NCBI RefSeq assembly: GCF_023896955.1 | Contig: NZ_JAMHIW010000007.1 | Coordinates: 124,001 to 188,000, forward strand | Source: Micromonospora sp. RHAY321 | GTDB lineage: Bacteria; Actinomycetota; Actinomycetes; Mycobacteriales; Micromonosporaceae | Length of the DNA stretch: 64,000 bases | Direction of reading: 5' to 3' | In this document: piece after piece, positions 28,817 through 39,744 of the stretch | Layout of the letters: each line of letters starts with the position of its first letter | Position numbering within the stretch: position 1 is the first letter of the stretch | The notes under the pieces: model-generated | Database searches by the model: none | What the model was told of the DNA's origin: nothing | What the model saw: the letters and a program-made list of their open reading frames with translations, nothing else | Made by a program: the position numbers and the translations under genes

Positions 28817-29251
28817 ATGTCACCAAAGGTCTCGATTGTCGCCACGGACAGCCACCGCGATCCCGGCCCCCGACCCGGCGCCGACGTGACCTTCCTGCCG
28901 CTCGCCGACGACGACGGCGTACCGATCTACGACGAGTCCATCCCGGACCTGATTCAGCATCTGCAGACCGCGGGGCTGTCGGCCGACACCTGGCATCCCG
29001 CCGCCGAATGCGACTTCGTCTCGTCCCGAGGGCTGGTGACCGACGCCCTGGTCCAGATCGGCGTGGGAATCGGATCGTCCGCCGGCTGGTACGCCCTACA
29101 GTCGCTGCTCCGTCGTCGTGGCGGACAGGTCAGGGTGGTCGCGGTCTTCGACGACGGCACCCAACGGCGGCGTGCCGAGGTGACCGGAGAAGCGGCCGAC
29201 GTCGTGGAGGCGCTGGAGAAGCTCGACCCTTTCAGCTCGGAGCCGTCCTGA
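28817..29251 (+). CDS. EACC1-like effector-associated constant component
   Basis: A 144-residue protein. After a variable N-terminus it has a hydrophobic segment near residues 72-98 (LVQIGVGIGSSAGWYALQSLL), a basic turn RRRGGQVRVV, and the C-terminal TGEAADVVEALEKL. This layout matches effector-associated constant component 1, a short protein found beside EAD-bearing conflict genes in actinobacteria. It lies upstream of an EAD2/VMAP-C gene, which supports the assignment. The hydrophobic segment may bind the membrane. Its biochemical role is unknown in the family. It starts leaderless and its stop (TGATG) runs into the region before the next gene. Confidence 0.65.
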   Translation: MSPKVSIVATDSHRDPGPRPGADVTFLPLADDDGVPIYDESIPDLIQHLQTAGLSADTWHPAAECDFVSSRGLVTDALVQIGVGIGSSAGWYALQSLLRRRGGQVRVVAVFDDGTQRRRAEVTGEAADVVEALEKLDPFSSEPS

Positions 29252-29299: not shown

Positions 29300-30796
29300 T
29301 TGGGGCTCGTGCGTGAGGCCCCGCGGCGCCATCCGCCGTCCATAGCGGAGGAACGTCGCCGACTCGTCGGGCAGATCGCCACCGTCATGGAGGCGTCGGC
29401 GGTGGTCCGCGACCCCAACAGCCGACAGTTGCTGCTTCAGGAGCTGGGGCATGCGCTGGGCGGCGCGCTGGGTTACCGGGAGCTGGTCGTGCTGCGACCC
29501 CAGATCGTCGATCTGGTGACGGTGTGCGTGGACCGGCCAGGTGGCCTGCGCTGCCTCGCCGAATGCCTGGAGCTGCTCGAGCCGGGCAGCACACAGACCA
29601 TCGCGCTCCTGCTACTGGCCGACGAGTGGCAGGCGGTGGAACTCCTCGCCGACTACGACATCTCCTGGCTCCGCAGCCTGTTGTCCACCCTTGAGGCGAC
29701 CGCGGAGCTGCGACGGTTCGTCACGGAGGCCCGCGCGACCCCCGCACCGCCGTGGTGCGAGACCGCCTGGCATCTCTTCGCCCATCTCGCGTCGGCGAAC
29801 TCGCACGGCGCGGTGCCACCCTGGCTCTCACTGCTCGACAGGATCGCGCCGGCCGTACCGCAGGCGTCGCTGTCCCGGATGAACCATCTCACCGCGCAGC
29901 TCGCCAAGGACTGGGGAATGACGGATCAGGTCGTGGCTTCCACGCCGAGCCCTCCGTCTCCCACCGGCACCGCCTACCTGGTGATCCAGTTCGAGAAGTA
30001 CGGCGGCGACGACGACACCTACATCATGTCGCACTGGTATCAGTGGGCGTCTCCGGTGTGGCAACCGATCCGCGGCGAGGACCGACACGTCCCGTACGGG
30101 GAGCTCGAGGCGGCCGTCGACCAGGTCGTCAACGAGACCGAGCGCCGCTGGGCGAAGCTCGCCGGGGCGGTGACGATCGAGTTCGTCCTGCCCTGGCAGC
30201 TGATCAACGAACCGGTCGACACCTGGCGCAAGGAACTCGATTCACCGATGCCGAGTCCCCTGACCACGGAGTATCCCCTGGTGATCAGGAGCCTCGAGCG
30301 CCTCCGCGCCAGTCAGTGGCACCGGGTCTGGCGGAGTCGTTGGCGAGGTCTGGCCGACCGCGTCGGCGAGCGAAAGCTGGTCCACTGCGCGGCGCAGCAG
30401 CATGCCGACGTTCAGCTCGAGGCGATTCTCAAACGCGAGACCGCCGTCGTGGCGCTGGTGCTCAGCGAGACCCCGACCTCCGACAGCGTCGGCGAGCGGC
30501 AATTGCTCGTCGGGTTGCGCTCCGGCGTCCCGGCGATCGTGTGGCACCGTGGATCTTCATCCACAGTGGATCTATGTAAGACTGTTTCGTCGATGCTTGG
30601 CGACCACGCGTCGGGCTCCGAGGTGACGGAACTTCCGAACCGTGCCGCGCAATTGCGGCAGCAGGCGTGGAGTGAGGACCCCAAGGGGCTCGACCAGCAC
30701 ATCGGGCACGGCTTCGTGCTCTTGTTCGACGATCCGGACCGGCAGCCAGTGGGGGCGGTCCACGCCGACGGCGACAGGCGAAAGGTCCCTGCATGA
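29300..30796 (+). CDS. EAD2 + VMAP-C domain protein (conflict-system adaptor)
   Basis: About 498 residues. Residues about 17-100 resemble effector-associated domain 2, a death-like helical adaptor: ERRRLVGQIATVMEAS, then VDLVTVCVDRPGGLRCLAECLELLEPGS. From about residue 215 to the end the sequence fits VMAP-C: YLVIQFEKYGGDDDTYIMSHW, VTIEFVLPWQLINEPVDTWR, YPLVIRSLERL, and the ending DQHIGHGFVLLFDDPDRQP. VMAP proteins are core components of NTP-dependent conflict systems and EAD2 recruits effectors bearing the same domain, here presumably the caspase at 37050. Start is TTG 29300 or GTG 29309; the SD is weak. The stop overlaps a small ORF by ATGA. Confidence 0.82.
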   Translation: MGLVREAPRRHPPSIAEERRRLVGQIATVMEASAVVRDPNSRQLLLQELGHALGGALGYRELVVLRPQIVDLVTVCVDRPGGLRCLAECLELLEPGSTQTIALLLLADEWQAVELLADYDISWLRSLLSTLEATAELRRFVTEARATPAPPWCETAWHLFAHLASANSHGAVPPWLSLLDRIAPAVPQASLSRMNHLTAQLAKDWGMTDQVVASTPSPPSPTGTAYLVIQFEKYGGDDDTYIMSHWYQWASPVWQPIRGEDRHVPYGELEAAVDQVVNETERRWAKLAGAVTIEFVLPWQLINEPVDTWRKELDSPMPSPLTTEYPLVIRSLERLRASQWHRVWRSRWRGLADRVGERKLVHCAAQQHADVQLEAILKRETAVVALVLSETPTSDSVGERQLLVGLRSGVPAIVWHRGSSSTVDLCKTVSSMLGDHASGSEVTELPNRAAQLRQQAWSEDPKGLDQHIGHGFVLLFDDPDRQPVGAVHADGDRRKVPA

Positions 30797-30912
30797 GCGG
30801 CAACGGCCACGCGACGACGGGAAGCGCCGGCTGGCGTACGCGCCGGCTGGACGTAAGCACTGCCGGCGGGTGCCGTGGCATCCGGCCACCGTGGCCCGGT
30901 TCGGGTCGCTGA
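30793..30912 (+). CDS. Possible small coupling ORF between VMAP-C and FxsT-like genes
   Basis: A 39-codon frame starts at ATG 30793, overlapping the VMAP-C stop as ATGA, and ends with TGA at 30910-30912, overlapping the FxsT-like ATG as TGATG. It has no recognisable domain (MSGNGHATTGSAGWRTRRLD at the start). It may be a translated coupling peptide, or it may mark a frameshift that once joined extra N-terminal sequence to the large gene. Codon use is unremarkable. Confidence 0.3.
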   Translation: MSGNGHATTGSAGWRTRRLDVSTAGGCRGIRPPWPGSGR

Positions 30913-33900
30913 TGAGCCAGTCGACGCCGCTGACCTCCGCCCCCGGCCGACAGGCCGACGGGTCGCCGCTCAGGCCCACGGGCCACAGCCGGGAACTCGT
31001 CGTGGTCGTCGACGACGACCCGGTGATGGAGTTCTGGGCCGACGAGATATCCACCTTCGTGGCGGTGCTGCGCGCCCAGAGCGTCTTCCGTTCGGTCGAC
31101 GTCAGGCGGATGGGGGTCGGCGATGGCAGGCTCTGGGTGACCGGCGGGCCGGACGGTGACCCCGCCGCACCCGCGGATCTGGTCGACCCGGCCGGGCAGC
31201 GCGTCGTCTTCCTGTTGACCCACGGTGGTTCCGAAGCCTGGCTCGGCGGGCTCGTCCAACCCGTCCTCGCCTCCTGGGCGGCCCGCATGATGGTCGCCGT
31301 CGTCAACGTGCTGCCCCAGCAGCACTGGCGCGAACGACGGATGGAGACGACCGAGGTGGCCTGGAGCCCGGGCGGCTCCGGTGCGACGACCACTGGGTGG
31401 TCGTGGCGGGTGAGCGGTCTGGACCTGCGCCCGCCGGGCGAGCAGAACGACGCCCTGTTGACGGCGGTACCGGTCATCGAGCGCGGCACTGACTGGCTGC
31501 ACCGGTGGAGCCGGCTGCTGGCCGACCCCGCGCCGGACGACGTGCGGCTGCCCGCGCTGCTCCTGCCGCCGGACGGCTCGACCGCTTCCCGGTTGAGGCA
31601 CTCGCTCAGCGCCCACGATCTTGTCGCCCGATTCCGGGCCACCGTGTCACCCGCGTCGTTCACGCTGGCGACCCGGCTGGCGGCCGCTCCGCTCAACGCC
31701 CGGGTGGTGCGCGCCCTGCTCAAGACGGTGGTCCGGTCGGGGCCGGCGCAGTTGACCGAGGTGCTGACGAGCGACCTGGTGCGCCCCGTCCTGCACGGGG
31801 GCGCGACCACGAGTGACACCCGCATCAGGTACGAGTTCGTCCACGGCGTCCGCGAGCGTCTCCTCACGCTCGGGTACCGCGACCGCACCATCGAGGTCCA
31901 GCACGTCGTGGAATACGAACTCGCGCACGACGTCGAGGCCGTGCGCAATCTGACACTTCGCATCAAAGATCCGCGGAACGCGTCGTTCGGGCGCGTCACT
32001 CCGGCCGCCGAGCCGTACCTGCGGGTCGAGTTGGCTGTTCACCTCTCACTGGGCGGGCCGAACCTTGGCGCGGCCACGCGGCTCGGCCAGGCACTCGGGT
32101 CGCCCATTCCACGGCAGGTACGTCGAGTCGTGCCGCCATCTTCCGTTACCGCTCACAGGACCATGGAGTCCGGAATGTCTGACAGAGTGAAATCGCCGGG
32201 CCCGGGGGTCTCGTTCGGCACCACCACGCCTGACACATTGGCCACCGATTCGGACGTCATCCCCGGCACGCTGCGGATCCACGACCTGGAGACCGCGCAT
32301 CGACTCGACGGACAGGCACCGGCGATCGTCGGCAACCTTCCGCTGCGGAACACGAACTTCACCGGCCGGCGCGATCTGCTCGACTCCCTGCACCAGCGCC
32401 TGCGCGCCGGCACCACCGCCGTCCTGCCGGAGGCGGTGCACGGCGCCGGCGGGGTCGGCAAGTCCCAGCTCGTCATCGAGTACGTCTATCTCCATCAGCA
32501 GGACTTCGACCTCATCTGGTGGATCCCGGCCGAACGCCCGGCCCAGATCCAGTCCGCGCTGGTGGAGCTGGCGGTGCGCTTGAACCTGCCGGTGCCGTCG
32601 ACGGCCAACACGGCCGTGCCGGCGGTGCTGGAGGCGCTGCGAATCGGCCGTCCGCACACGAACTGGTTGCTGATCTTCGACAACGCCGAGGACCCGGACG
32701 ACGTCGAGCGGTTCTTCCCGACGGGCGGCCCGGGGAGCATCGTGGTCACCTCGCGCAATGGTGCGTGGCGCGAGATCGCGAGCAGCCTTCCGGTCGACGT
32801 CTTCGACCGGCAGGAGAGCATCGAACTGCTCCGCCGTCGAGGCCCGGACCTGGCCGTCAACGACGCCGACCGGCTCGCCGCGGCCCTGGGCGACCTTCCG
32901 TTGGCCATCGAACAGGCGGCGGCCTGGCGCGCCGAGACGAGGATGCCCGCCGACGAGTACCTCGAACTCCTGGACGCCAGCCGCCCGGTGCTCGACGACG
33001 GTACGGCGACGCAGGATTACCCCGCCCTCGTCGCGGCCGCGTGGAACGTGTCTCTCAACTGGCTACGTGACCAGGACAGCTCGGCACTACGGCTGTTGCA
33101 GGTGTGTTCGTACTTCGCTCCCGAACCGATCGGCAAGGTGCTGCTGTCGAAGCCGCGCGCACTTCGCATCCACCCCGACCTGGATCCCCTCGTCCGCAAC
33201 CCGATCCGCCTCAACCGGGCGATCCGTACGATCGGTCGACTGTCGCTGGCCAGGATCGACCACCGGACGAACTCGTTCCAGATGCACCGTCTCGTCCAGC
33301 GCGTGTTGATCAACCAGATGGACCCGGACGATCGGGAGGCGATGCGCCACGGTGCCCACCTGCTGCTCGCCGGCAACGACCCCGACCAGCCGGACGACGC
33401 CGACCACTGGCCGCGGTACGCCGAGTTGTATCCGCACATCATCGCCTCGGAGGCCGAGCGGTGCTCCAACGAACTCGTGCGGGACATGGTGCTGAACGAG
33501 GCGAAGTACCTGTGGCGGTGGGGTGACCACCTCGGTGCCCGTGACCTCTCGCAGCGGGCGTGGACGGCCTGGACCTCCACCGCCGACGGCGCCGACCCGG
33601 ACAGCCTCCGGATGGCGAGCTGGCTTGGTTTCATGCACTTCGTCGTCGGTGACTACGCCGCCGCGGCAGCACTCAACGCCCGGACGCTGGAGTTGTACCG
33701 GCAGACCCGCGGCGACGACCAGGAGGAGACCCTGGACGCCACCGGTGCCGTGGCCGCCGACCACCGGGTCGCCGGTGACTTCACCGGTGCGCTGGATCGC
33801 TCGCTCATCGTCTACGAGCGGGCCAAGCAGAACTTCGGCGAGGAGGAGCCGTTCACTCTGCGCGCCGCACACAACCTCGCGGTGAGCATGCGACTGTCCG

Positions 33901-34799
33901 GCCTCTTCGGGCGAGCTCTCCAACTCGACGAACAGACCTATCAGCGGCTGGTGCAGATCTACGGCACCGACCACCCCGACAGCCTCAGCACCTTCGGCGG
34001 CATCAACCTCGACCGCCGTGAACTCGGTGACTACGTCGCGGCGCACGCCAACCAGGAGAACGTCGTCGCGACGGCCCGTCGGATGCTGAAGTACGACGAC
34101 CACCCGGATCTTCTCCGGCAGAGCCACATGCTGGCGAGCTTCCGGCGCAAGGCCGGTCACCACCACGACGCCCTGGACCTGTCCAGCGACGTGCTCCGCC
34201 GCTTCCGTACCCGCTACGGCGACAGCCACCCGGACACCGTGCTCGCCACGCTGACGTTCTCCATCGACCAGCGGCTGACGGGCGACCTACGTGCCGCGCG
34301 GGAGGCTGCGGAGGTCGCGGTGGAGGGTCTGCGCCGGCTGTACGGCGAGCAGCACCCGCACACCGCGGGCGCTCAGGTGGACCTGGCGGTGACACTTCGG
34401 CTGCTGGGCGAGTGCGAACAGGCCCGGGAGCTCGACCAGACGGCGCTGCAACGGCTGACCAACCGGCTCGGCGAGTCGCATGCCCTGGTGATGGCTTCCC
34501 GGATCAACCTGGCGAGCGATCACTACGAGCTCGGCGACTACGAGGAGGCTCACGCCCTCGACCTGGCCACCCTCGCGACCTGCCGTCAGGTCCTCGGCAG
34601 CAGCCACCCCACCACGCTCGTGTGTGCTCTCAACCTCGCCATGGACCTTCGGGGCCTGGGACGGGAGGCGGAGGCGGGCATGCTGTTCGACAAGGGCCTC
34701 GAGCAACTGCGGCAGACCCTCGGCGTACGACACCCGGCCGTCGCGGCGATCGGTGCCGGCGTACGGGCCAACTGCGACATCGACCCGCTTCCGTTGTAG
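30912..34799 (+). CDS. FxsT-like STAND protein: SAV_2336-type vWA-like region + NB-ARC + TPRs
   Basis: A protein of about 1295 residues. Residues about 25-345 match the SAV_2336 N-terminal region: ELVVVVDDDPVMEFW (a MIDAS-like motif where the usual Ser is Asp), QRVVFLLTHGGSEAW, LVARFRATVSPASFTLATRLAAAPL. An NB-ARC NTPase follows from FTGRRDLL (about 482), with P-loop GAGGVGKS at 511-518, Walker B LIFDN (Asp590) and LPLAIEQAAAW. The last 430 residues are TPR repeats of the HPDT/HP type. This layout is that of FxSxx-COOH system TPR proteins, thought to act as a sensor and signalling ATPase. ATG 30912 lacks a good SD and may depend on coupling; the frame is open further upstream. Confidence 0.85.
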   Translation: MSQSTPLTSAPGRQADGSPLRPTGHSRELVVVVDDDPVMEFWADEISTFVAVLRAQSVFRSVDVRRMGVGDGRLWVTGGPDGDPAAPADLVDPAGQRVVFLLTHGGSEAWLGGLVQPVLASWAARMMVAVVNVLPQQHWRERRMETTEVAWSPGGSGATTTGWSWRVSGLDLRPPGEQNDALLTAVPVIERGTDWLHRWSRLLADPAPDDVRLPALLLPPDGSTASRLRHSLSAHDLVARFRATVSPASFTLATRLAAAPLNARVVRALLKTVVRSGPAQLTEVLTSDLVRPVLHGGATTSDTRIRYEFVHGVRERLLTLGYRDRTIEVQHVVEYELAHDVEAVRNLTLRIKDPRNASFGRVTPAAEPYLRVELAVHLSLGGPNLGAATRLGQALGSPIPRQVRRVVPPSSVTAHRTMESGMSDRVKSPGPGVSFGTTTPDTLATDSDVIPGTLRIHDLETAHRLDGQAPAIVGNLPLRNTNFTGRRDLLDSLHQRLRAGTTAVLPEAVHGAGGVGKSQLVIEYVYLHQQDFDLIWWIPAERPAQIQSALVELAVRLNLPVPSTANTAVPAVLEALRIGRPHTNWLLIFDNAEDPDDVERFFPTGGPGSIVVTSRNGAWREIASSLPVDVFDRQESIELLRRRGPDLAVNDADRLAAALGDLPLAIEQAAAWRAETRMPADEYLELLDASRPVLDDGTATQDYPALVAAAWNVSLNWLRDQDSSALRLLQVCSYFAPEPIGKVLLSKPRALRIHPDLDPLVRNPIRLNRAIRTIGRLSLARIDHRTNSFQMHRLVQRVLINQMDPDDREAMRHGAHLLLAGNDPDQPDDADHWPRYAELYPHIIASEAERCSNELVRDMVLNEAKYLWRWGDHLGARDLSQRAWTAWTSTADGADPDSLRMASWLGFMHFVVGDYAAAAALNARTLELYRQTRGDDQEETLDATGAVAADHRVAGDFTGALDRSLIVYERAKQNFGEEEPFTLRAAHNLAVSMRLSGLFGRALQLDEQTYQRLVQIYGTDHPDSLSTFGGINLDRRELGDYVAAHANQENVVATARRMLKYDDHPDLLRQSHMLASFRRKAGHHHDALDLSSDVLRRFRTRYGDSHPDTVLATLTFSIDQRLTGDLRAAREAAEVAVEGLRRLYGEQHPHTAGAQVDLAVTLRLLGECEQARELDQTALQRLTNRLGESHALVMASRINLASDHYELGDYEEAHALDLATLATCRQVLGSSHPTTLVCALNLAMDLRGLGREAEAGMLFDKGLEQLRQTLGVRHPAVAAIGAGVRANCDIDPLPL

Positions 34800-34812: not shown

Positions 34813-34850
34813 GACCCGGCGGGTCACACAGCCAGCCAGCCCGCCGGGTC
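34813..34850. terminator. Stem-loop between FxsT-like and HExxH genes
   Basis: GACCCGGCGGG at 34813-34823 pairs with CCCGCCGGGTC at 34840-34850 (11 bp, 16-nt loop). The right arm lies within the last codons of the minus-strand HExxH gene, which stops at 34824. It probably terminates the plus-strand operon. Confidence 0.55.
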
Positions 34851-36698
34851 GAACGTGTCGAGTTCCTGGTCCGGCACGCCGCGGCCGACCCAGTCGGCCA
34901 GCTCGATGGGATCCAGCGCCACCGTTGCGTGGCCCCGCGACCGGAGCCCGTGGACGACGGCCAGGACGAGTTCCGGACGGCACAGCAGGGCGCGGGTCGC
35001 CGGGTCGGCGGGACGGTCGATCTGGGTGAGGCCGAGACCCACCCAGCCGTGCACGCTCGACGGGTCCTGTCTCAGTTCACCGAGGTAGCCGGCACGCGCC
35101 CGCTCCACGTCGCCGGCCACCAGTGTGAGGTCGGCCGGGGTGGCGCCCGCGACCCTGGCGCCCACCTCCTCGGGCGAGGCGCACAGTCGACCAAACTCGT
35201 CCGGGTCGACCAGCAGGTATCTGCGCAGCACAGCCCTCGCGTCGAGCAGACCCTCCGGAGGCGCCACCAGCACCTTCCGGCCGTCGATGGCGAGGACAGC
35301 CTCCGCTGCCGGGTCGCGGCGCTGCCAGGCCACCGCCAGCGCATCCCGGTCGGCCGGGTCGAGGCACACGTTGTGGCCCCGCCACATTGCGCGGTGATCG
35401 AGGGCGACGGCGTGCGCCGCATCGAGCGCGGCGACAGGCACCGCGTCTTCCTGACACGTCTCCAGTTCCGCGTGCAGCGTCTCGACGAACCGCTGGCCGT
35501 GCGTGGTCAAGCGGCCGGACGCCGCCATGAGCCGCAGGACGCCGAGGGTCTGCCGCCGCCACAGCGCGAACTCGAAGTCCGCGGCGGGGCGGTCGGTGGG
35601 CGGCGCGTGGTGTCGGTGAACCCGCCAGAACCGGGTGATGCCGGCGAACGCGTACGCGCCCTGAAGGACGCCGGCAAGTGGCCTGGGGTCGTCGCGCCAC
35701 GGGGCGTAGTAGCGGATCGGGCCGCCGCTCTCGGAGAGGGCGAGCAGGTGAGACAACGCGCCGAGCTTGTGGTGCTGCGACTCGTGCACCAGGGTCACGG
35801 CCAACTGTGCCGCGTCGTCCGGCTCGGAGAGCAGGACGCCGCCGAAGGCCTCGGCTCCGGACGCGGACAGTTGGCGGAACCGGTCCCGGCGTGGCAGCGG
35901 TGCCACGGTCCGCAGGATCCCGGCGATCGCCAGGGCCGTGCCGCGCTGCTCGCTGACCAGCAGCTCCCAGGCCTGCGCGAGACACGCACGCCAGCGGGCG
36001 ATCTCGGGTGCCGACAGCGGCTGGGGCGACGAGGGGCCTCGCAGGTCCCGGTACACGTCACGATCGAGCAGTTCGACCCGGAGGCCGACGCCGTCCGCAG
36101 CGGCCTCGACGATGATCGGCTCATGCCAGTCCGGATCACCGGCCACGCACCGGACGGTCCGTCCGCCGGTCACCAGGTCGACCTGTCCGTCCCGGGCCCG
36201 CACGCGGACGACCGGGACGGCCGACGCGATCGAGGCGGAGCCCACGGTGGGTAGCACCGCCGCGCCGTCGCGCACCGGGATGTCGAGGTCGAAGGAGAGG
36301 CCCGCGCGGACAGCGCTCGCCGCGGCCAACGCGTGCAGGTATCCGACGTCCAGCCACAACGGCACGAGAAGGTCGGAGTCGTCTCGCAGCCGACGCAGGG
36401 TGTGCGCGGCCCAGATGCCGACCTGTGGCCGGGCCAGGACGTCTTCGGTGACGTCCGGAGCGGCACCGTGCGCCTGGACCAGAAGCTGCCAGGCGTCAGC
36501 GACGGGCGCGAGCGGACCGGCGGCATCGGGCCGGGTGGCGCAGCTGTCCAGGAGGACCCGCAGCACGATCAGCCGCCAACTGCGCTCGGACCTCCAGAGC
36601 GCCTCGACGGTCCGTTCGGCTCCCCCACCGGACGCCAGGGCGTGAAAGTGCTCGGGTTCGAGGTACGTCGGCCCTAACGGCACGGGATCAGACGCCAT
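34824..36698 (-). CDS. Stand-alone HExxH peptide-modification enzyme (aKG-HExxH-type peptide beta-hydroxylase family)
   Basis: A 624-residue cytoplasmic protein. Near residue 300 is AVTLVHESQHHKLGALSHLL, in which His305, Glu306 and His309 form the HExxH site. It is followed by YAPWRDDPRPLAGVLQGAYAFAGITRFW, the conserved block of the mod_HExxH family. Proteins of this family are annotated as alpha-ketoglutarate-dependent peptide hydroxylases acting on RiPP precursors. In FxSxx systems the domain is often fused to the radical SAM enzyme FxsB; here it stands alone. ATG 36698 (GAGGAAC upstream) overlaps the stop of the precursor gene by 11 nt, so the two are co-translated. That makes the peptide its probable substrate. 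Confidence 0.85.
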   Translation of the reverse strand: MASDPVPLGPTYLEPEHFHALASGGGAERTVEALWRSERSWRLIVLRVLLDSCATRPDAAGPLAPVADAWQLLVQAHGAAPDVTEDVLARPQVGIWAAHTLRRLRDDSDLLVPLWLDVGYLHALAAASAVRAGLSFDLDIPVRDGAAVLPTVGSASIASAVPVVRVRARDGQVDLVTGGRTVRCVAGDPDWHEPIIVEAAADGVGLRVELLDRDVYRDLRGPSSPQPLSAPEIARWRACLAQAWELLVSEQRGTALAIAGILRTVAPLPRRDRFRQLSASGAEAFGGVLLSEPDDAAQLAVTLVHESQHHKLGALSHLLALSESGGPIRYYAPWRDDPRPLAGVLQGAYAFAGITRFWRVHRHHAPPTDRPAADFEFALWRRQTLGVLRLMAASGRLTTHGQRFVETLHAELETCQEDAVPVAALDAAHAVALDHRAMWRGHNVCLDPADRDALAVAWQRRDPAAEAVLAIDGRKVLVAPPEGLLDARAVLRRYLLVDPDEFGRLCASPEEVGARVAGATPADLTLVAGDVERARAGYLGELRQDPSSVHGWVGLGLTQIDRPADPATRALLCRPELVLAVVHGLRSRGHATVALDPIELADWVGRGVPDQELDTFDPAGWLAV

Positions 36699-36906
36699 GT
36701 TCCTCCGAATCCGGCCCGGTGGGCCGCCTCCGGCTCGGGGAGGAGCCGTTGTAGCCGCTGATGCTGCCCCCCGTATCGGCAATGATCGCGCGCACCCGCG
36801 AGATCGCCGCAGTCATGCCGGTGAGGTCGACGGATCGCAGGGACGCGACGTCGACCGTTGACAGATCGAGCAACTCAGACTCGATATCAGCGAGGCCTTC
36901 CTCCAT
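36688..36906 (-). CDS. FxsA-like RiPP precursor peptide, non-canonical core GYNGSS
   Basis: A 72-residue peptide. The leader contains ELLDLSTVDVASLRSVDL and AAISRVRAIIAD, the acidic/hydrophobic pattern of FxSxx-COOH precursors. Where those peptides end in an aromatic-x-Ser motif at the C-terminus, this one has SISGYNGSS (residues 48-56) and then a 16-residue Pro/Arg/acidic tail ending HGV. ATG 36906 is chosen because GGAAGGG lies 9 nt upstream; an in-frame TTG at 36915 directly abuts it. Candidate modified residues are Tyr52, Asn53 and the Ser residues. Its stop overlaps the start of the HExxH gene. Confidence 0.78.
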   Translation of the reverse strand: MEEGLADIESELLDLSTVDVASLRSVDLTGMTAAISRVRAIIADTGGSISGYNGSSPSRRRPTGPDSEEHGV

Positions 36907-37049: not shown

Positions 37050-38165
37050 TCACGTGTACGGCACCAGCCGGGCGGCCCCGGTCTCGACGCCGGCCATCGC
37101 CGCGTCGTCGGTGGCGAAGAAGCGGACCGCCTCGACGAGTTCGGACAGTGCGCCCGGATACCGCAGACAGGTCCGTACGACGCTGATGGTGTCGAGCCGT
37201 GCCCCGTTGTGCCGCCGGATCGCCGCGTACACCTGGCCGCGCAGGAGGGACAGGATCTCCTCACGCTCGGCGGGCCGCCGGAACTCGGGTATCTCCAGCA
37301 ACGCGTCCACGAGAGGGGCCATCACGGTGGGTGACGGTGACGCGGCAGCCACCCGCACCGGCGGCCCCGCCTCGGGCCTGCCGAGAACGAGACCCTCGTC
37401 GCCCAGCCCGTTGCGGTACCAGAGGTACGTCGGCGTCTGCCCGGTGAGACCACTCGCCCGCAACTCGGCGAACCGCTCTCGTAGCGTGGTCACCAACCGA
37501 CCCGGGTCCCCGAGCCAGTCCGTGTCGCCGGACTCGACCAGTCGCAGGATCTCCCGGCTGAACAGGCCGGTACGTCGGACCCGCAGGTTGGCAGCGGCCT
37601 GACCGAGACCAGCGGCGAACACCACGTCCTGCGTCCGGCCTTCGACGGGGACTCCGCTGGGGAAAGTCTCGTTGCCGGTCGAGCGCCCCGCCTCGGGGCG
37701 CTCGCGCACCTGGCAGGCGTCGACGATCCACAACTGTCGGTTGAACGCCGGGACGAGGTCGGAGGCGAACGTCACGAGCATGGAATCGAGGTCGAGGGCG
37801 CCGGCATCGGTGGCGGTGGCGTCGGAGTAGTAGAGCCGCCGATGACGACCGGTGTCGACGTAGCCGTGGCCACCCCAGATCACGTAGAGGGTGGATCCGC
37901 GTCGGGTGGGCAGCTCGCGCAGCAGCACGTCCCGTACGGTCCCGCGGTCGGCGGGCCGCACGACGACGCCCGGCGGGACGACGTCCGAACCGGGGTCGGG
38001 CGCCAGCAGCACGGTCATCTGCTCCGGTGGCACCCCCCGCGCCACGAACCTGGTGGCGAACCGGACGGCGTCGTCGACCGGCCCGACCAGGCTCCACTCG
38101 CTCCCCGCCTCGTAGCGGTCGATGCCGACGATGACGACGTGGGCATCGCGGGGATCGTGCGGCAT
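37050..38165 (-). CDS. Caspase-family (C14) protease with C-terminal EAD2
   Basis: A 371-residue predicted cysteine protease effector. The caspase fold opens with DAHVVIVGIDRYEAGSEWSLVGPVDDAVRF. The catalytic His100 sits in VIWGGHGYVD and Cys151 in WIVDACQVRE. Residues about 285-352 (REEILSLLRGQVYAAIRRHN, then VVRTCLRYPGALSELVEAVRFF) form an effector-associated domain 2, the same adaptor type as in the VMAP-C protein at 29300. EAD2-EAD2 contact would bring the protease to the VMAP/STAND machinery. When activated it probably cleaves a partner or host proteins to cause dormancy or death; the target is unknown. ATG 38165 has no clear SD. Confidence 0.87.
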   Translation of the reverse strand: MPHDPRDAHVVIVGIDRYEAGSEWSLVGPVDDAVRFATRFVARGVPPEQMTVLLAPDPGSDVVPPGVVVRPADRGTVRDVLLRELPTRRGSTLYVIWGGHGYVDTGRHRRLYYSDATATDAGALDLDSMLVTFASDLVPAFNRQLWIVDACQVRERPEAGRSTGNETFPSGVPVEGRTQDVVFAAGLGQAAANLRVRRTGLFSREILRLVESGDTDWLGDPGRLVTTLRERFAELRASGLTGQTPTYLWYRNGLGDEGLVLGRPEAGPPVRVAAASPSPTVMAPLVDALLEIPEFRRPAEREEILSLLRGQVYAAIRRHNGARLDTISVVRTCLRYPGALSELVEAVRFFATDDAAMAGVETGAARLVPYT

Positions 38166-38325
38166 CCGGTCACCATCCCGTTCCGGAGGTGCGCTGGCAA
38201 GGCACCAGGCAGCGGCGCAGGCGGCGCCAGCGGCAACCGATCTTGTCGGAGGCGACGGTTAGCGTGTGGGCACTGTCGCCGCGCCGGCCACGTCGGGCCG
38301 GTCGCTGACCCCCTCGGAGGCCCCC

Positions 38326-39744
38326 ATGTCCCAGGAGACGACCTACCTCGAACTGTCCGAAGTGGACGGTGCGCACAAGTTCTACGAGGTCGTTGTCGAG
38401 GACGCCACGCTGACCGTGCGCTACGGCCGGATCGGCGACCAGGGGCAGACCAAGGCGAGCGCCTATCCGGACAACGCCCGCGCCCGTGCCGCCGCAGCGA
38501 AGAAGATCGGGGAGAAGGTCCGCAAGGGGTACGCCCCGGCCGTCCCCGGGGTTCGACAGAAGCGCACCGTCTCCCGCCGCCAGATCGTCAGCACCCGCTC
38601 GACCGCCCACACCGCACCGGTGCTGTGGCGCTACGACTCCGGTGCCCCCGCCTTCGGCATCTTCGTCGACGGGCAGCACTGCATGGTGGGCAACGAGCAC
38701 GGGGTGATCACCACCCTCGGCCACGACGCCCAGGTGCGCAGCCAGGTCCGCCTCCCCGACGGCGTGAAATGCATCGTCGCCGACGACGCCTGGATCTACG
38801 CCGGCTGCGACGACGGCAACGTCTACGACCTCTCCGGCAAGATGCCCCGGGTGGCGTACGCGATCGCGCCGGAGATCGACATCTACTGGCTGGACATTCA
38901 CGACGGCGTTCTGGGCGTCTCGGACGCCGACGGTGGGATCGCCGCCATCGACCACGAGGACGAGTTCCTCTGGCGCCGCCCGGGGCGGGGGCGCTCCGCC
39001 TGGATGGTGCGGTGCGACACCGACGCGCTCTACCACGGCCATTCGCAGGGCGTGACCGGCTACGACTGGCGTACCGGCCGCGAACTCTGGCACACCAGGA
39101 CCGGCTCGGTGCTCTTCGGATGGCAGGAGCCGGGCAGCGTGTTCGCCGGCACGGGCACCCGCGAGGTGGTGCGGCTGGCGAAGGACGGTCGGGTCGAGCG
39201 CAGCTACCGGTGCGACGCCCCGGTCTTCTCGTGCGCCACGGCCGAGGGCGGCCGGTACGTCTTCGCCGGTGACAGCCAGTCCTCGATCTACTGCTTTGAC
39301 GCGGCGGGCACCCGGCTGTGGAAGCTCGGCACCGGTTGCGGCTCGGCGTACTCCATGCAGTACCGCGACGGTCGGCTCTACGTCGTCACCACCGGCGGCC
39401 ACCTGGCGTGCATCGACGCCAGCGAGCCGGCGATCCGGGCGGCCCAGGTCGGGGACGTGCCGGAGGTGCTGGACGTCAAGGCGCCCCGCCAGGCACCCCG
39501 CACCGTGGAGCCGATGCTGGTCGAGGTGACCAGCGACGCCGGCGCGGGCGTGGTGGTGCAGTGCCTGGACGACCGGGGGCGGCTGCGGGTCCAGGTGCTC
39601 TCCGACGGCTACCGACGGGACTGGTCCGTGCAGTTCCCCAAGGGCATCCGGGAGCCGGGTGCCCGCTACCTGGTGACGGAGGTCCGCGAGTCCGGCCGCG
39701 GTGGGTTCTACCGGGCGTACGGCGACATCCGCCGGCTGCGCTGA
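38326..39744 (+). CDS. WGR domain + PQQ-like beta-propeller protein
   Basis: A 472-residue protein. Residues about 5-80 form a WGR domain (TYLELSEVDGAHKFYEVVVE, LTVRYGRIGDQGQTKAS, AAAKKIGEKVRKGY), a fold found in PARPs and bacterial MolR-type proteins that reads DNA ends or nucleic acid. Residues about 95-470 form a seven-bladed PQQ-like propeller (AGCDDGNVYDL, VFAGDSQSSIYCFDAAGTRLWKL). GGAGG precedes ATG 38326, and a -10-like TAGCGT lies at 38260-38265. No signal peptide is seen, so it is cytoplasmic. It is divergent from the caspase gene and may be a further sensor of the island, but this rests on position only. Confidence 0.82.
   Translation: MSQETTYLELSEVDGAHKFYEVVVEDATLTVRYGRIGDQGQTKASAYPDNARARAAAAKKIGEKVRKGYAPAVPGVRQKRTVSRRQIVSTRSTAHTAPVLWRYDSGAPAFGIFVDGQHCMVGNEHGVITTLGHDAQVRSQVRLPDGVKCIVADDAWIYAGCDDGNVYDLSGKMPRVAYAIAPEIDIYWLDIHDGVLGVSDADGGIAAIDHEDEFLWRRPGRGRSAWMVRCDTDALYHGHSQGVTGYDWRTGRELWHTRTGSVLFGWQEPGSVFAGTGTREVVRLAKDGRVERSYRCDAPVFSCATAEGGRYVFAGDSQSSIYCFDAAGTRLWKLGTGCGSAYSMQYRDGRLYVVTTGGHLACIDASEPAIRAAQVGDVPEVLDVKAPRQAPRTVEPMLVEVTSDAGAGVVVQCLDDRGRLRVQVLSDGYRRDWSVQFPKGIREPGARYLVTEVRESGRGGFYRAYGDIRRLR

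Follow-up and report, generated by a model that had tools for sequence, protein, structure and literature searches.

The closest described systems are those of Kaur et al. (2020, eLife; PMC7159879). As far as the available part of that paper goes, its HExxH protein is taken as a metallopeptidase and its peptide precursors fall into FxSxx, RxD, acidic and FtsH-associated classes. An extra SPASM radical-SAM gene comes with FxSxx peptides, a distinct radical SAM occurs in FtsH-associated systems, and in the RxD and acidic types the AP-ATPase-TPR is fused to a vWA protein. RxD-type systems, as presented in the same part, combine a HExxH gene with a small, fast-evolving precursor and have no radical SAM; their NTPase-TPR is fused behind a vWA/SAV_2336-type part and their VMAP carries EAD2. 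A limited literature search found no work treating VMAP and HExxH together and, judged by its listing, only Kaur et al. on FxSxx in this subject.

Peptide oxidation has since become established for the HExxH family. In the accessible parts of two papers, His, Asp, Phe, Gln and Pro of other peptides are oxidation targets of HExxH enzymes (PMC13060819), and such enzymes are capable of both hydroxylation and cleavage (Ouyang et al., PMC12636437). The residue at the site matters: in PosA, Ala or Gly favours backbone cleavage, with Gly only partly cleaved, Gln and Val undergo hydroxylation, and oxidation of Ser leaves the backbone uncut (PMC12636437). The PosA motif need not be C-terminal, and in an alanine scan R, M and D of ARMD are individually dispensable (PMC12636437). 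For the enzyme PesO, the hydroxylated residue is a Pro before R(V/T)DN (PMC13060819). Characterised HExxH partners of FxsB-like maturases require a preinstalled cyclophane (PMC12636437). The available parts of the biphenomycin paper PMC12257519 and of PMC8195603 hold nothing decisive for the peptide considered here.

The window (the whole stretch of 64,000 nucleotides that was analysed) contains a gene cluster of RxD-type layout (Table 1), with a HExxH gene adjacent to the precursor gene, no radical SAM, and NF041121 and NF040586 matched within one protein. It fits the RxD/acidic design of Kaur et al., yet the peptide carries none of the testable ends given in the available part of that work, i.e. 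RxD, FxSxx or four acidic residues. It ends HGV, with Tyr-x-Gly-Ser-Phe internal (core GYxGSF) and a tail behind it; from residue 51 onward, the longest acidic run in 14 aligned tailed copies is 2, so that four contiguous acidic residues do not occur. Measured against what that part of the paper describes (PMC7159879), the peptide is a previously unlabelled, tail-bearing branch of the 2020 family, in which the C-terminal RxD is replaced by GSF and a tail. Most likely, this small conserved actinobacterial gene encodes a peptide that is oxidised by the enzyme encoded beside it, within an immune-like signalling gene cluster.

Table 1. Features of the gene cluster, in window coordinates
Feature	Position	Strand	Description	Basis
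Precursor peptide ORF	36688..36906	minus	72 aa + stop, ATG at 36906	translation, relatives in other genomes
Leader	36769..36906	minus	residues 1-46	dN/dS 0.26 in 8 close copies
Core	36739..36768	minus	residues 47-56, GSISGYNGSS in window, consensus GSISGYxGSF	entropy, dN/dS
Tail	36691..36738	minus	residues 57-72, last codons overlapping HExxH start	in all 14 aligned copies
Stand-alone αKG-HExxH enzyme	34824..36698	minus	624 aa	TIGR04267 166.1 bits, cut-off 40
Caspase-like protein with EAD2	37050..38165	minus		Pfam EAD2 PF19956, 76.1 bits
NTPase-TPR	30642..34799	plus	SAV_2336-type N-terminal domain	NF040586 FxSxx_TPR 870.9 bits, NF041121 210.1 bits
VMAP	29300..30796	plus	EAD2, VMAP-M0, VMAP-C	Pfam PF19956, PF19916, PF20028
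Small conserved protein	28817..29251	plus	EACC1-like by position (analyst's label)	start from L044 copy

Clear relatives of the precursor occur in 5/150 other genomes searched, those of congeners G047, G027, G005, G039 and G017 (E 3e-31 to 8e-15), and all five adjoin a HExxH gene. A precursor profile finds the same tailed peptide type in 12 named loci, within a set drawn from the best 80 of 251 candidates. The original prediction supposed a short ORF conserved across related genomes, and both searches agree with it. A chance ORF is rejected, since conservation across relatives appears in the genome search, the profile and dN/dS. The start Met (36906) is identical across 8 close copies, the window included. 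At the other end, the ORF is overlapped by 11 bases by the HExxH gene, whose start at 36698 was placed by aligning relatives; this overlap and the conserved adjacency bear out the proposed pairing of a precursor-like peptide with a stand-alone HExxH enzyme. Translation of the ORF confirms every element first read in it: ELLDLS, AAISRVRAI, Tyr52, SGYNGSS and, as the last 16 residues, a Pro/Arg/acidic tail that ends HGV.

The core is the best conserved part of the peptide, with the lowest entropy and the lowest dN/dS. Mean entropy over 14 aligned tailed copies is 0.31 in the core versus 1.50 in the tail (0/100000 in a shuffle test that takes no account of relatedness among copies). Across the 8 close copies, dN/dS comes to 0.11 in residues 47-57, 0.26 in the leader and 0.43 in the tail (58-68), all given without a significance test. 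Invariant columns number 11/40 in leader residues 7-46 and 0/16 in the tail, which is 12-16 residues long in all 14 copies. The motif GYNGSS as such is not conserved: position 56 is Phe in 13/14 copies and Ser in the window copy only, so that the conserved motif is SGYxGSF and the window carries a Phe-to-Ser change. Position 54 is Gly in 13/14 copies, preceded by Asn, Ser or Gln; L072 has Pro54. Among the 8 close copies, D7, A40, I41, R60 and G71 are also seen in the window copy only, and these changes together with Ser56 suggest that this copy may be weakening. One tailed copy, L063, retains a terminal RxD (ADRVD), which may be a remnant of the ancestral end.

Resemblance of the leader to FxSxx precursors, also part of the original prediction, stands as a distant relationship: 4/10 related precursors give sub-threshold matches to TIGR04268 (FxsA; 16.0-21.5 bits, cut-off 28), among them the ortholog L054 at 16.5 bits, and the precursor profile also recognises, with E of 1e-7 to 5e-9, the precursors linked to FxsB in L050-L052. 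Membership in FxsA does not stand. In NCBIfam the window peptide has no TIGR04268 match and is absent from its genome's 11 such matches, and FxsB is missing from the 79 related loci (best 80 of 251), so that membership is rejected. The NCBIfam run on the ten related precursors returned nothing besides the four sub-threshold matches, and the precursor profile did not find the window genome's own FxsA (L053). Compared with the FxSxx-COOH system (TIGR04268, TIGR04269, TIGR04267), the window thus shares a distantly related leader, a HExxH partner and an NTPase-TPR of model NF040586, but has neither FxsB nor a C-terminal FxSxx, and its own copy has no TIGR04268 match. In the FxsB-linked precursors of L050, L051 and L052, a few acidic-rich residues (DGDD or DGRD) come after the FxSxx-like motifs GWNSAI, GFESAL and GWQSAI, so that in these, too, FxSxx is internal.

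By tblastn, FxsB radical SAM is found in 0/79 related loci (best 80 of 251 candidates) and in 4/4 control loci, one of them the source of the query. Six genomes with tailed peptides were searched as a whole: FxsB exceeds the cut-off in G000 and G039 and in none of G047, G027, G005 and G017, and each of the six also shows lower-scoring radical-SAM matches, at 76-82 bits against a cut-off of 370. A ring installed by FxsB is thus not needed in general. In three-residue cyclophanes the bond goes to a beta carbon, and the third residue of Tyr-x-Gly is Gly in 13/14 copies. Neither this nor the FxsB search supports a different ring chemistry, which is rejected because the 79 loci yielded no enzyme for it.

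By its TIGR04267 match and its intact HExxH motif (HESQH), the neighbouring protein is a member of the αKG-HExxH peptide hydroxylase family, its predicted activity being peptide oxidation that depends on αKG and iron. Profile A1 matches PDB 22nu (E 2.4e-63) and ChlH (8s5f, E 7.5e-13), the likeness covering HExxH and the PWRxDxRP region. ChlH needs a cyclophane installed first (PMC12636437, available part), unlike the window enzyme if this acts on a ring-free peptide. In the accessible descriptions of PflC/PosC and PesO (PMC12636437, PMC13060819), a stand-alone HExxH enzyme likewise acts on a leader-bearing peptide without radical SAM and oxidises beside a C-terminal ARMD or R(V/T)DN. These systems differ from the window in leaders and partner enzymes and have no VMAP/NTPase, and the likeness is one of description. 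ARMD and PR(V/T)DN resemble the RxD of sister precursors, which is a lead only, and a strict RxD recognition motif is disfavoured because PosA can do without any one of the R, M and D of ARMD.

Related loci were collected with seven aligned stand-alone HExxH proteins as query, and the best 80 of 251 candidates correspond to 79 named actinobacterial loci. Six of these end at contig edges (L090 is shortest, at 4.1 kb), and L055, L056, L058, L061 and L064 come from the same genomes as L046, L045, L047, L048 and L049. The precursor profile, built from 18 seeds picked by leader motif and, for a few of them, by C-terminal sequence, gives a candidate at E <0.5 in 77 of the 79 loci, the weakest at 9e-3; it finds its seeds by construction, and 17/79 loci supplied seeds. 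The precursor lies downstream of the HExxH gene in 7/77 loci (L088, L095, L107, L120, L121, L127 and L132). Six end types were distinguished: the window's tailed GYxGSF, and SGYNPQRxD, GGYNPQRDE, xSYNPSRxD, GPPGRxD and SQxKRVD. L126, L111, L074, L078, L083, L086 and L112 are variants of their assigned types, and L099 was grouped with SYNPSRxD by leader, though its ORF ends VAGVNQTH and the profile missed it.

The distribution of precursor types agrees with the HExxH tree: every type occupies one side of a branch, with support 100 for the tailed type (13 rows) and 87 for GPPGRxD. The number of type changes is 6, the minimum possible, against a shuffled mean of 41.7, in a quick tree with 17/84 rows without group and with type labels set loosely by the analyst from precursor ends. 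A single tailed clade contains the window and 12 named loci, and all 13 encode a tailed peptide with 12-16 tail residues (loci from the best 80 of 251); it sits among types with RxD at or close to the C-terminus. Of the precursors from the same best 80 of 251, 40/65 others have an exact RxD-COOH versus 1/13 tailed ones (L063), a count in which part of the profile seed itself ended in RxD; the background is 35/20687 small ORFs. A residue common to the cores of all precursor types was looked for and none was found; site assignment is thus drawn from the tailed clade alone. In all, six precursor types pair with enzyme clades, and the tailed clade would allow a simple test with two genes.

Some loci contain more than one precursor. 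L070, L074, L075, L078, L081 and L083 are duplicated systems with differing cores: a second precursor-like ORF (E 7e-13 to 6e-17, and 2e-12 in L081) lies ∼1.4-2.1 kb upstream of the HExxH gene on the opposite strand, together with a second HExxH gene in divergent orientation. L089 and L117, both from Amycolatopsis, each carry an additional precursor, alike in type, ∼9.1-9.5 kb downstream from the HExxH start. In L123, two weak candidates, with E of 9e-3 and 4e-2, lie in tandem between -441 and -12 from the HExxH start; their ends read GGGGGGAERID and EEGGGAERID.

Partner genes were counted over the 79 loci (best 80 of 251) with profiles built from those same loci. NTPase-TPR is the commonest partner (74), followed by VMAP (68) and MoxR (24), and the EAD2 partners are trypsin-EAD2 (18), caspase-EAD2 (16) and hydrolase-EAD2 (6). 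Among the 12 named tailed loci of this best-80 set, NTPase-TPR is present in 12, VMAP in 10 (not L061 and L062, which have a short NTPase only) and caspase in 8 (all but L060-L063); all three are present in the window. Four of the five congeners with a clear relative (loci L044-L047) share the window's six-gene set, i.e. small protein, VMAP and NTPase-TPR, with HExxH, precursor and caspase-EAD2 on the other strand, and in the fifth (L048) the set comes down to precursor, HExxH and an NTPase of short length. The small protein, without Pfam or NCBIfam match, is kept in L044-L047, and its profile (named EACC1b) is found in 7/79 loci, all tailed (best 80 of 251). From the length of the L044 copy (1297 aa), the conserved start of NTPase-TPR is probably near 30906. 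PADLOC gave no match at E 0.01 for the six genes of the locus.

Taken together, the ORF probably encodes the substrate of the adjacent HExxH enzyme, a derived RxD-type precursor whose core undergoes ring-free oxidation and whose product serves NTPase-TPR. As gene anatomy and the published relatives suggest, the first ∼46 residues would be a leader that docks on the enzyme. The enzyme would then oxidise the SGYxGSF core around Tyr52-Asn53-Gly54, most likely at or beside Asn53/Gly54, without a radical-SAM ring. Within one HExxH clade, the RxD end would have been swapped for GSF and a tail of 12-16 residues, and the modified peptide would probably be read by, or regulate, the NTPase-TPR protein. 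The role of substrate is supported by the gene overlap and conserved adjacency, by the core being the most constrained part of the peptide, by the family assignment and retention of HExxH in 84/84 tree proteins, and by the match between precursor types and enzyme tree. Oxidation without a ring is supported by FxsB in 0/79 loci of the best 80 of 251 and by the 4/6 searched genomes without FxsB over cut-off. NTPase-TPR is the best candidate reader because it is the most constant partner (74/79 loci and 12/12 named tailed ones, best 80 of 251). Against this explanation stand Pro54 in L072, the lack of a core residue common to all types, Ser56 and the other changes peculiar to the window copy, and the cyclophane needed by characterised FxsB-linked HExxH enzymes.

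The fate of the tail can be read in several ways. It may have no role at all, the stop codon having drifted downstream toward the HExxH start in a G+C-rich, stop-poor frame. The tail is indeed the least conserved part, as its invariant columns (0/16) and dN/dS (0.43) indicate; yet 12-16 residues with Arg/Pro and acidic residues are kept in 13 loci of several genera, and dN/dS stays below 1, although without a significance test. A roleless tail is thus unlikely, but far from negligible.

Also unlikely is removal of the tail by the HExxH enzyme itself, as by PflC/PosC at ARMD, where alpha-hydroxylation of Gly54 would split the backbone and leave SGYN-amide. This would suit Gly54 in 13/14 copies after Asn, Ser or Gln, a tail far less conserved than the core, the 4/13 tailed loci without caspase in the locus stretch (best 80 of 251), and the behaviour of PosA, in which cleavage is favoured by an Ala or Gly there and the motif may be internal (PMC12636437, available part). 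Cleavage is weakened by the PosA alanine scan and by the Pro54 copy of L072; moreover, the PosA Gly variant is only partly cleaved (same source), no ARMD-like sequence is found at Gly54, and Ser55-Phe56, conserved as well as the rest of the core, would be discarded. More doubtful is an extended scheme in which a ring-free αKG/oxygen-dependent peptide mark controls an NLR-like NTPase, with SGYxG oxidised, the Gly54 step freeing the tail and leaving a C-terminal amide, and NTPase-TPR reading the mark. If true, every HExxH clade would use a core code specific to it (GYxGSF, GYNPQRxD, GPPGRxD, etc.).

The original prediction suggested that the tail is a follower cut off by the neighbouring caspase-EAD2 protease. 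The caspase gene lies directly upstream of the precursor, the tail contains Arg and Asp residues, and caspase-EAD2 is enriched beside it (9/13 tailed loci vs 8/67 others, best 80 of 251). However, L060-L063 have a tail and no caspase in the locus stretch, so that caspase is not required locally; 8 other loci (best 80 of 251) carry caspase without such a tail, and of the 8 named tailed loci with a caspase, 6 belong to close relatives of Micromonospora type. Trypsin-EAD2 or hydrolase-EAD2 in other loci makes the caspase look like an exchangeable EAD2 module, and such a cut is improbable. The EACC1-associated caspase model matches the window protein only weakly (21.9 bits, cut-off 140). Although FxsA, FxsB and a second HExxH lie together on contig C12 of the window genome, it is barely credible that FxsB encoded elsewhere makes a ring in trans on the core before hydroxylation by the HExxH enzyme, given the 4/6 genomes without FxsB over cut-off and Gly at the third ring position in 13/14 copies.

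Substrate oxidation by the adjacent HExxH enzyme, the preferred explanation, bears on the 2020 systems as well. Since the proteolytic reading of Kaur et al. (available part) concerns a family now known to oxidise peptides, these loci become testable as peptide oxidation in NLR-like conflict systems.

Related loci do not share the genes that lie past the caspase in the window; one of these, at 38266-39744, adjoins the cluster and encodes a WGR domain fused to a PQQ-type beta-propeller, not seen in related loci. The C-terminus of NTPase-TPR is strongly conserved, and in the window reads RANCDIDPLPL (34760-34799). R-x-[N/D]-C occurs near this end in 71/74 proteins, the exceptions being L061 and L062, both without VMAP, and L116 (RANGDVDPMPL). 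FxsB-linked NTPase-TPR proteins end otherwise, with TDTDIDVPxS in L050-L052. R-x-[N/D] near the NTPase-TPR end resembles the RxD end of the sister precursors.
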